A DNA stretch of 64,000 nt from Desmodesmus armatus. Its lineage: Eukaryota; Chlorophyta; Chlorophyceae; Sphaeropleales; Scenedesmaceae. This document shows, in pieces, positions 2,331 to 60,386 of the stretch. The stretch is from assembly GCA_007449985.2 (NCBI GenBank), contig VIIQ02000147.1:1-64000 (forward strand), read 5' to 3'. The position numbers and the translations under genes were made by a program. The notes below the pieces were generated by a model. That model searched no databases and was not told where the DNA came from. It worked only from the letters and a program-made list of their open reading frames with translations. Numbering within the stretch: position 1 is the stretch's first letter; every line of letters begins with the position of its first letter.

Positions 2331-5300
2331 ATGAAACCTCTGTTAGCATTGCTAGCTGCCGGGCTGCTGTTCAGCAGCACAGTAGCAGACAGCAGTACGA
2401 GAGCACTGACAGCAGCAGTGGATCCCAGCTGGGTGGAACTACAGCAGCTGAGGTGTCGGGAGGGATGTGCGGGGTCCCCAAGGTTCCTTACTTCGGGTCC
2501 ATGGCGGACTGCAGCAGGTCCCTGCAGCAATAGGCTACAGCTGCTCAGTCACATGCTCCAAAAAGTGAGTGTGCCACTTTCACCTGGCAGAGACAGGCAT
2601 TTTCATGCTCCAGTGCTCCTAGATATGGTGTGTTACACATGCAAAGCAGTTGTACAGGTGCTAGTATAACAGGCTGGGGGTAGCAGGAGGCTGTTGGACA
2701 GGCAGGCATCAAGGTGTAGTTCTAGATGGCAGCAGTGCGCAATACCGTCACCCTTGCAGTGACAGCAGATTGGCCAGCAGTGTGTTATTGCCGTTTGAGG
2801 TAGTAGAGTTCAGGAGTTCTTGGGGTCTGGCATCCTCACTAGTCTGTTGGGCACACCCCACAATGCTGCAGTAGCTGCACACAACCCAAAGGTAGGAGAC
2901 AGGGTGCCACCCTGTCACAATCAAGGGACAAAGGCTAGCGCCGGTCACCGACCCCACGCAGGGGCACCGCATTCAGCACAATCCATCAGAGGCATTGTCA
3001 ATGCGATTTGAATCCCAACCAGAAAAAAATGAACTTCTTGCCCATGTGTTGCTGCTGCTGCTGCTGCTGCTGTCACTATCAACACTGCTGGCACGCAGCA
3101 CCAGGCGTCGTTTGACAGCCTGCCTCACCCAACAGCCACATGCACTGACAAAGGCTGGGTGGTGGAGAACCCATGCAGGAGAGGTGGGCAGCAGCTGCAA
3201 TCTGATTTTTTTGCTGCTGCTTTCTTGGCCTGATTGATGTGGGTGATAGTGGGGTCCAAGACAGAGCCATGCACAGGTCATAAGCTGCAGCAGCAGCAGC
3301 AGCAGCAGCAGCACCGCAGCAGCAGGAGCAGCAGTGATGTTGACGTCGCCCTCCAGCAGCACCAACCGCAGCAGCAGTGATACTGCTGCAACGGCACCAA
3401 CAGCAGCAGCAGCATCCACTGCAGGCACAGCAGTGCTGGCAACAACGGAGCAGCAATAGTGGTGGCTGCTACAGCAGCAATGATGACGGCACAAGCGGGT
3501 GCAGCAGCAGCAGCAGTGATGGCAGCAATGGGGACTTTAGAAGAGGCCGCAGCAACAGCAGCAACAGCAGCAGCAGTTGCCCGGTCGGCAACGAGTATAT
3601 TCCGGGCTAGCACATCCAAAGTCTAGTGCAGCTGCACTGCATGGATCAGGCCCCTGAGGCGCTTCTGCAAGGCGCGGCAGCAGTAGTACCATCAGGTGCC
3701 TTTCTGCAGCGTGCTGCAGCAACAGCAGCACAGCAGGACCATCTACAGCACCAGCAGTAGGCGTAACAACAAGCACTTGCAGCATTGACAGCAGCAGCAG
3801 CACCAACAACAGCCATAAGACATCAGATATCAGCAGCACCCACACCTTGCGAATGTTGCGTCCTGCTGTGCTGTACTGCAGTGTGCATGGGTGCGCCTGA
3901 CAATTCCTTGGTCGACACGGCGAAGGGTGTGTGGGCAACCAACTGTGCCGACCACACACTCGTTGGCGACGTGTGCCATGCTATTGTGAGTACCGCCTTG
4001 GGGGCAGGAGCAACAGTAGATGATGACATGTCGCACTGCATGGCTCGTGACAGAGAAATTGGCCTATCTCTCTTGCTTGGCAAACCAAAGGCCCGAACTG
4101 AACGCATGGCACACAAGACTAAGAGTGACCTTCCATCTAGGTGGTAAACCCTGCTGCTGGCAGCCACTAGCGTTCAGACATCTATGTACGTCAAATCACG
4201 TCAACGGGTTGATCGTGATGCATGTGCGCCTAACGATCCCCTACGCCCCCCTTCCCATCCTCACACCCCCCCCCCCTTCCTGTCCCCCTGCAGTGCTACC
4301 ATGGTGGGAGCACCTGCGGTCATGACGGCAGGTGGCCCACCCACAACCACAATCGCACACCATCTGCAGCATGCACACCTTTTGCTCTGCCTTTCTCCCC
4401 CCAATACGCATGCATGCCGACGTACTGTAACATCCTGCCCACCCACCCACCTTTCCCCCTGCAGTGCTATCACGGAGGTTCCCTCAACATTACCTGTGGC
4501 CATGATGGCAGGTGGCCCACCACAGTGACAGGAGAGTGCAAGCAGCACCCTAGACTGGCACAGCAGCCGTCCCGGGGCAGCATACTGCTGCCGCCACCAC
4601 GCCAGGCACCCCAGCAGCAGCAGCAGCAGCAGCAGCAGCAGCAGTGGGCTGGTCCTCCCTCACGGCCCAGCCTGCATCGACCTGGTAACAACTTGGACCC
4701 TGTGAATGCACCAGAGGCACCTCAGGAACCTGCCAGCAGGGGCCCTGCGGCAGGTATGTGGGTTTTTGGTGGGTGGGGGGGGGGCTAGTCGGTGCTGTGT
4801 ATGTTGGGAATGTACGCGAACTAATAATTTGCTATCATGTGGAGGTGTGGATGGCGGCATGCCTAGAAGGGGCTTGCAAGAAGGGAGTGGGCAGGGTGGG
4901 GGTACGCTTGGTGGGAGGAGTTGCGATGAAATGTGGATGCGCCAGAGGCACCTCAGGAACCTGCCAGCAGGGCCCCTGCGGCAGGTATGTGTTGTCAAGA
5001 AATGTTCAAGAAATGTTCAAGAAGTGTTCAAGAAATGCTCAAGAAATCTCGGAGCTTTAGTTGTTGTAGTGAGTGGCAGCTGTCAATTTGAGAGAAGCAC
5101 AGAGGAAGCAAAGGCACGCGCTGAGACTATTGCTGGGCCAACTTGGGGCGGCAAACCAAGTCTTTTTTGAAAGGGAAAGGGCGCCTCATTCAAATTGCTC
5201 AAATGAGGCTCCTACGGCTGTTGCTGCTATTGACAAGGCTGCTGCTGCTGCTGCTGCTGCTGCTGCTGCTGCTGCTGCTGCTGCTGCTGCTGCTGCTGCT

Positions 5301-60100: not shown

Positions 60101-60386
60101 CACCATCACGAGCCCACCAACCCCACCCCAGCACACACCCACCTCCCACATCATGCACAGTGCGCCGCAGCTTTGCTACAATTGCCTCAGTGCCCATGCT
60201 TGTTTTGGCCAGATCATCACTGTGCTGCAGCAGCGTGTCCAGCGTGCCCACCCGCAGCTCGGGTACCTCCAGCTTGGCGTTGCTGCTGAGCTGCTGCCCA
60301 TAGCTGGTCTTTTCCTGCAGCAGCTCCCAGGTTTGGCCCCTCCCACCCCGCCCTAGGGGCAGGCTCACCAGCCAGTAGTTGGGCAT
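54129..60386 (-). CDS. VHA-C: V-type proton ATPase subunit C
   Basis: Eight minus-strand exons: 60386-60143, 59088-59022, 58319-58226, 57724-57515, 56785-56669, 55522-55310, 54590-54512 and 54232-54129. All are GT-AG, all phases agree, and they give 375 residues, the length of the Arabidopsis subunit (DET3). Landmarks in order are MPNYWLVSLPLGRG, ELRVGTLDTLLQHSDDLAK, SYLTRFRWDEPKFPL, IEDDLKVKLGEFNTIKSQ, AGGSLAVRDISSLVKPGQ, YSVKDWETCYEKLADFVVPR, EDQDYVLMSVVLFRRTVDDF, GEAFSCYVHLAVIRLFVES, ILRYGLPPQ, HYWKDD and HPYVSITI at the end. Subunit C is the elongated stalk protein joining the V1 and V0 sectors of the vacuolar proton pump and controls their reversible assembly. Nearly every intron carries decoy copies of a flanking exon. 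Confidence 0.96.
54340..54376 (-). repeat. Decoy copy of the last V-ATPase C exon start
   Basis: A copy of the acceptor and first dozen codons of exon 8 (VHYRKDDGT in place of VHYWKDDGT) lies about 140 bp upstream of the real exon on the minus strand. Confidence 0.8.
54873..55077. repeat. Compound foldback: two adjacent hairpins
   Basis: Hairpin 1 has arms 54873-54907 and 54918-54952 (35 bp, one mismatch, 10-nt loop). Directly beside it, hairpin 2 pairs about 54955-55003 with 55036-55077 (strong over the outer 28 bp, with a few mismatches and an unpaired bulge further in). Both lie in the V-ATPase C intron between exons 6 and 7. Confidence 0.88.
55668..56260 (-). repeat. Decoy copies of the V-ATPase C exon 6 start
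   Basis: The real exon starts at 55522 (KEYVPPAPEAADAPP). Copies of acceptor plus the 5' half start at 55781 (one frameshift) and 56044 (intact KEYVPPAPEAADAPPTSLSL). A short third piece lies near 56216-56250. The spacing of about 260 bp between starts is very regular. Confidence 0.9.
56405..57352 (-). repeat. Decoy copies flanking V-ATPase C exon 5
   Basis: Downstream of exon 5 (56785-56669) a copy of its 3' end and donor lies near 56440-56408 (FKTTACVCGFQ). Upstream, a copy of its 5' part lies near 57035-56965 (SCKRVSDD, then a stop). Near 57352-57288 is a copy of the end of exon 4 (YSVKDWETC, then frame-shifted). Confidence 0.85.
57880..57955 (-). repeat. Decoy copy of an internal part of V-ATPase C exon 4
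   Basis: Encodes RKAGGTLAVPDISSLVKP about 160 bp upstream of the real exon 4 (57724-57515). It has no obvious acceptor of its own. Confidence 0.8.
58555..58900 (-). repeat. Three decoy copies of the V-ATPase C exon 2 end
   Basis: The real exon 2 ends SYLTRFR with its donor after 59022. Copies of this end with donors lie after 58854 (GTGGGT), 58721 (GTGTGA) and 58561 (GCGTGG), spaced 133-168 bp. C-runs on the plus strand separate them. Confidence 0.9.

Follow-up and report, generated by a model that had tools for sequence, protein, structure and literature searches.

Half-exon copies in the introns of a Desmodesmus armatus contig as probable remains of short-range direct duplication

The first 64,000 nucleotides of contig VIIQ02000147.1 of the green alga Desmodesmus armatus (hereafter "the window"; G000:C143:1-64000 in our numbering) carry several genes whose introns hold partial copies of the neighboring exons. 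Most of these copies, which we call decoys, consist either of an acceptor plus the start of an exon or of the end of an exon plus its donor. Here we describe the decoys of the window, follow them into other parts of the assembly (115.8 Mb, 831 contigs), and argue that they are probably what is left of ordinary short-range direct duplications. The window has a G+C content of 58%, next to the 57% listed for Tetradesmus obliquus in a table of PMC5966456, and CAG arrays and reading frames with poly-A, poly-Q, and poly-S are very numerous in it.

The window and its half-exon copies

A first-pass annotation, made from the letters alone, had placed the decoys in five genes. Two of its gene names are secure: the V-ATPase C gene on the minus strand (Pfam E value 1.3e-98, from a model using each exon once) and the CCDC25-like gene on the same strand, which matches NFACT-R_1 with an E value of 1.2e-31. 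The name of the lipase-like gene on the plus strand is weak (Lipase_3, E value 0.0019, under the curated cut-off), and both "Sushi" names lack Pfam support, no Pfam family having matched three pieces of these genes. Genes were predicted with a small hidden Markov model (HMM), trained on kinase exons and re-trained on a comparison sample and the window; its predicted introns have a median length of 274 nt (n = 268), and it mis-called some decoys as exons.

Comparison of the window with itself, using the Basic Local Alignment Search Tool (BLAST), finds partial exon copies in introns at the places where they had been reported (Table 1). The earlier figure of about 30 agrees with our count of 33 in window introns, most of them with a donor or acceptor. 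In total, 26 were aligned (seven in V-ATPase C, three in CCDC25, 15 in the lipase-like gene, and one in Sushi-like A), and the other seven are the V-ATPase C copy at 58079-58094, the Sushi-like A copy at 4932-4991, and five units of the Sushi-like B array judged by eye. All counted decoys are in direct orientation. The distance to the next copy is 89-474 bp, a broader range than the 100-260 bp given at first, and the furthest copy in the arrays lies about 850 bp from its exon. As had been noticed, the copies are of the exon-start or exon-end type, internal pieces being rare (57882-57948 is one), and they range from intact to frame-shifted, with both frameshifts and stops among them.

Table 1. 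Positions of the decoys and related arrays in the window
Gene	Feature	Position	Strand
Sushi-like A	exon-end plus donor decoy of 4701-4760	4932..4991	+
Gene model beside Sushi-like A (4706-6154)	exon-end plus donor decoy of 5433-5471	5522..5570	+
Sushi-like B	tandem array of acceptor plus exon-start units, periods ~122 and ~249 bp; the unit that opens the long frame is preceded by five others, read by eye, the gene finder having no gene there	11485..12266	-
CCDC25-like	last exon end, donor, and G-run, copied	23553..23644	-
CCDC25-like	second half of one exon plus donor, copied downstream	25880..25951	-
CCDC25-like	acceptor plus first half of the same exon, copied upstream	26382..26445	-
Lipase-like	sixth copy, old and degenerate, uncounted	near 29133-29246	+
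Lipase-like	five acceptor plus exon-start decoys of exon 30215-30375: 29333-29433, 29495-29595, 29725-29829, 29898-29955, 30025-30100	29333..30100	+
Lipase-like	acceptor plus exon-start decoy of exon 30864-31005	30581..30712	+
Lipase-like	four exon-end plus donor decoys of exon 30864-31005	31135..31788	+
Lipase-like	exon-end decoy, donor not aligned	33232..33279	+
Lipase-like	two exon-end plus donor decoys inside tandem array, period ~149-180 bp	37197..37455	+
Lipase-like	two exon-end plus donor decoys	38430..38671	+
V-ATPase C	tandem array, period ~261 bp, across a predicted exon edge; outside the 33	55410..56248	-
V-ATPase C	exon-end plus donor decoy	56403..56440	-
V-ATPase C	exon-start decoy with AA in place of the acceptor AG and a single in-frame stop	56970..57040	-
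V-ATPase C	exon-end plus donor decoy, frame-shifted	57237..57346	-
V-ATPase C	internal piece of the following exon (57515-57724), copied upstream, without acceptor	57882..57948	-
V-ATPase C	decayed copy of the EDDLK exon end; donor now GC	58079..58094	-
V-ATPase C	exon ending ..SYLTRFR and next intron with three exon-end plus donor decoys: 58851-58901, 58710-58770, 58550-58623; third donor GC	58319..59088	-

Orientation, locality, and decay of the copies

Near-repeats were defined as BLAST alignments of at least 50 bits between copies 40-700 bp apart, coding tandem repeats being counted too. The window self-comparison yields 22 clusters of near-direct duplications, and a comparison sample of 200 kb (20 pieces of 10 kb each, taken from three contigs at fixed offsets) yields 25, found in predicted introns and in intergenic DNA. 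The densities are 0.344 and 0.125 clusters per kb, respectively, the window being 2.75 times richer (p = 0.0009). As a control, 20 kinase loci were drawn from a Pfam table, blind to repeats, the sole criterion being at least two anchored exons close together. Clear decoys, counted only at 50 bits or more, occur in two of them, L035 and L043; the kinase locus L033 has a single weak pair below this threshold (31 bp, 34.6 bits), and at a 33-bit cut-off the comparison of each locus with one other locus gave seven matches. In other words, the phenomenon reaches beyond the window, which is a rich example of it.

When the window, the sample, and the kinase loci are taken together, 119 near-repeat alignments are direct and one is inverted, so the copies cannot be attributed to chance. 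Outside the window, nine of 28 clusters lie in predicted intergenic DNA and predicted genes occupy 172 kb of about 234 kb; cluster density is no lower outside genes. These local, direct-only copies, present also outside the window, support the recurrent local duplication process that had been proposed for the five genes.

The copies are local in origin. In a genome search that skips simple repeats, all 10 matches listed for a two-exon lipase stretch (itself included) lie within 29.3-31.8 kb of its own contig, and the sole match of the CCDC25 stretch is itself. The V-ATPase C decoys and the spacers between them match elsewhere in the genome only at G/C runs and other low-complexity stretches. 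We therefore rejected a mobile element or introner as the source, and likewise a distant paralog, the search of the assembly having found none for the lipase or CCDC25 exons. Introners place one element at many unrelated loci, which the decoys do not do; adjacent, direct copies within one gene, the trait of internal tandem duplication, are what is found.

An artefact of assembly is very unlikely. It could account for a few copies, since identity reaches 98% or more in 10 of 100 near-duplicate alignments, but 69 are 75-95% identical and are mostly not assembly doubles; most copies diverge by 5-25%, their spacers differ, and many contigs are involved. The contig pair L049 (C532)/L050 (C5) was considered as a view of the birth of a copy and set aside as uninformative, being 99.9% identical over 6.1 kb; this duplication is a haplotig or a very recent one.

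The V-ATPase C decoys show how such copies age. Seven decoy-exon comparisons differ at 12/106, 9/110, and 19/109 sites at codon positions 1, 2, and 3 (11%, 8%, and 17%) and at 30/172 aligned intron sites (17%). Positions 1 and 2 thus differ about half as much as position 3 and the intron. Because this is expected of one constrained and one free copy, the decoys appear to evolve as free sequence beside a constrained exon, and their decay looks neutral. The comparisons from the sample and the kinase loci (11/202, 9/201, and 29/198) fall between V-ATPase C and the lipase-like gene discussed below; the one at L022 is void, its two windows overlapping, and its 0/90 intron sites inflate the intron agreement of the sample. 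The CCDC25 decoys differ from their exons mostly synonymously, the exon-start comparison covering few exon bases because the gene model begins inside that exon.

Of 30 decoys examined, three of which lie in kinase loci, 29 were aligned, and 25 of these retain their splice dinucleotide. At 6-10% decoy divergence, neutrality predicts about 23-26 of 29, and the dinucleotides are kept no better than this. It had been suggested that the decoys supply spare splice sites or alternative exons, and one could add decoy exons for regulated splicing. The intact dinucleotides and the mostly synonymous differences of the lipase and CCDC25 decoys would fit such functions, but the decoys, being half-exons, lack the splice site at the other end, some have lost their own site or carry frameshifts or stops, those of V-ATPase C show no coding constraint, and the lipase pattern is also readable as gene conversion. 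We consider a function very unlikely, and the suggestion has little support outside the lipase decoys. Coding constraint on decoys in general was rejected, since the raw ratio of nonsynonymous to synonymous differences per site (pN/pS), 0.19, rests partly on non-independent members of the lipase arrays and V-ATPase C looks neutral.

Duplication, selection, and the rival readings

It is probable, at about 0.72 in our estimate, that the half-exons are remains of ordinary, unbiased, short-range direct (tandem-type) duplications, which arise genome-wide and persist only where the splicing machinery can pass over them. Within an exon, a duplication would survive only if it is in frame, and within an intron it would be neutral. 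One that straddles a junction would be neutral as long as the outer splice site stays in use, and would leave an exon end plus donor, or an acceptor plus exon start, in the intron. Selection would remove copies that alter the messenger RNA. Exons being short and introns measuring about 280 nt, half-exons at junctions must make up most of the duplications that survive in genes. Within the unit, decay would be fastest in the intron part and slower in the exon part, with no constraint on the decoy itself, and introns would lengthen; the intron expansion that had been proposed is supported. The duplications presumably arise by replication slippage or unequal sister exchange, and the decoys are presumably left unspliced. 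The periods of coding repeats (21, 105, 114, and 417 bp in the window and 60 bp in L017) are all multiples of three, as a selection filter that passes only in-frame duplications predicts.

Several points weigh against this reading. The gene models other than those of V-ATPase C, CCDC25, and the kinases come from the self-trained HMM, which sometimes takes decoys for exons, and "intergenic" means that this program calls no gene, nothing more. Secondly, the whole unit is not recognisable in many pairs. When residual homology between spacer and flank was sought in 39 pairs, with two tests per pair and little power in G-rich spacers, 13 pairs reached p ≤ 0.01 and a further 10 reached p ≤ 0.05. Chance alone, with each pair tested twice, would give fewer, and such an excess is expected of decayed tandem units, but the remaining 16 show no trace of the rest of the unit. 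The counts of tandem and spaced copies are taken from this test, masked alignments overstating the number of spaced ones. A copy in the kinase locus L035 does not suit simple tandem decay, since its intron part can no longer be recognised although 109 bp of it are 99% identical.

Such pairs could mean that a copy is placed away from its parent (A-X-A) and not as part of a full tandem unit, through template switching on the same strand, serial slippage, or fill-in at staggered breaks. Spacers that resemble neither flank in 16 of the 39 pairs suggest this; one of these pairs, L023, lies in predicted intergenic DNA and has copies of 104 bp, 91% identical, on either side of a 104-bp spacer. Homology also usually ends abruptly at the exon-side edge (28 of 30 tests with p > 0.05). 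Nevertheless, 23 of the 39 spacers retain residual homology, and true tandem arrays are present in the lipase-like gene (37055-37455), Sushi-like B (11485-12266), and V-ATPase C (55410-56248). Moreover, apart from low-complexity matches, no source elsewhere is seen for the sequence that separates the V-ATPase C decoys, and general template switching would yield more than one inverted near-repeat. Insertion at a distance is, on this evidence, unlikely.

The third point concerns the junctions themselves. The first-pass annotation had described the duplication as centered on exon-intron borders. The best pair of each genic cluster was classified, and it touches a predicted junction in 15 of the 19 clusters outside the window and in 15 of the 20 inside, one exon-only cluster being left out. 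Random placement in predicted genes with the same geometry touches a junction in 56% (outside) and 49% (window) of cases, or in 62% and 56% when exon-only placements are excluded. Against the midpoint of the latter two, 59%, the pooled 30 of 39 is an excess of about 1.3-fold (p = 0.015). It persists at 26 of 35 (p = 0.045) when four long arrays that do not consist of half-exons are removed (two of them in L017, the other two coding and near 50.7-53.0 kb). A mild junction excess remains, but the border pattern is mostly a matter of geometry and selection.

True targeting might come about if, for example, coding-strand G-runs downstream of donors caused replication to stall or R-loops to form. 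Introns throughout the window begin with G-rich sequence on the coding strand, and long G-runs are frequent there. A G-run of five or more occurs in the first 60 intron nucleotides of 31% of 16 kinase introns, 18% of 222 sample introns, and 39% of 61 window introns, compared with 7% of random pieces. Of the 22 window clusters, 18 span at least one run of seven or more G or C (7.7 expected), and this, together with the 30 of 39 genic clusters at junctions, would suit targeting. Outside the window, however, only five of 28 do so (4.3 expected), and the pooled association (23 of 50, 11.9 expected) stems from the window. The adjacent G- or C-run reported beside the copies is therefore a feature of the window and is absent as an association elsewhere. 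Hairpins between G-rich intron starts and C-rich intron ends were rejected, the ends of an intron pairing no better with each other than with those of other introns (160 introns). With nine of the 28 outside clusters in predicted intergenic DNA as well, targeted duplication is improbable, and we set it aside as the main cause because the excess over geometry is just 1.3-fold. G-runs may add to local instability; they are not a general cause.

Finally, the lipase decoys differ from their exons at 13/303, 6/304, and 64/303 sites at positions 1, 2, and 3, that is, mostly synonymously. Such an excess would be more than a free decoy should show, and on these counts the lipase decoys seem to be an exception among decoys. 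In the six-copy array (18 codons, 54 nt), the shared variants, judged by eye, are nearly all synonymous, and amino-acid changes are mostly private to single copies. The variants fit no tree: the homoplasy excess is 4, against simulated means of 0.5-1.0 (P = 0/400, 0/400, and 0.0075). As a tentative explanation, gene conversion might exchange sequence between the decoy half-exons and the working exon. The intron would then store exon variants, and selection on the exon would let only the synonymous ones through to spread. Alternatively, synonymous sites that are mutational hot spots may have changed repeatedly. The L035 copy, in which the 99% identical core is followed by a stretch of 25/34 identity, was counted as a sign of conversion. 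One of the 30 exon-side edge tests reached p ≤ 0.01 (L035) and one more p < 0.05, and four rows that were out of register carry little weight; a general identity step was rejected, since the other 28 gave p > 0.05, and genome-wide conversion gains no support from these tests. If conversion does operate, non-coding copies would feed synonymous variation into working exons.

Known systems and other features of the window

Gao & Lynch reportedly described internal tandem gene duplication, in which exon-intron segments are duplicated within genes, often across splice sites. The decoys share these traits, but differ in that the inner copy is left to decay within the intron, at high density, with no sign of a newly made intron or exon. 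The decoy exons of regulated intron retention are functional whole exons; the likeness lies in exon-like intronic segments with splice sites, and the decoys described here are half-exons for which no function has been demonstrated. In potato, according to PMC4974935, a tandem duplication including a splice site made a new intron and an inserted exon, and an 83-bp tandem duplication lies inside an intron. The unit of intron end plus exon start beside its parent is similar, but our copies stay buried in the intron. Rogers & Bendich 2025 (PMC11782384) describe pairs of 4-30 bp direct repeats at both intron ends and read them as insertion footprints; direct repeats at intron borders are common to both cases, and ours are mostly exon parts of 30-110 bp beside one border. 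A literature search, with subscription journals mostly beyond its reach, returned no recognised account of abundant junction decoys in green algae. Internal duplications that include splice sites are already known; the density here is unusual, and the lipase oddity is added to it.

If a compact genome keeps many junction-spanning duplications, its introns become a dated record of local duplication, and gene finders will mistake decoys for exons. The decoys offer a natural test of how splicing chooses among near-identical donors a few hundred bases apart.

Other repeats lie in or beside the genes discussed. On the minus strand, the long frame at 8475-11573 has a 21-bp coding repeat of about 50 KEQPAPA-like units, and coding tandem repeats with periods of 105, 114, and 417 bp occur at 50700-53000. 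Within the lipase-like gene model, 33330-36525 holds about 1.27 units of a tandemly repeated element of about 2,508 bp, with terminal inverted repeats CAGTGGGTTCGG..CCGAACCCACTG flanked by CCAT; it is near-identical on 12 other contigs among the matches listed. A dispersed repeat at 59388-59485, complex and not of low complexity, lies at the start of a further predicted V-ATPase C intron, apart from those that bear decoys, and is not itself a decoy. No Rfam family matched it in a scan of the window; it could be introner-like or a short mobile element, and among the matches listed it recurs at about two dozen places with 78-95% identity. The V-ATPase C gene model also includes an 82-bp palindrome, 93% self-complementary, at 54872-54953.

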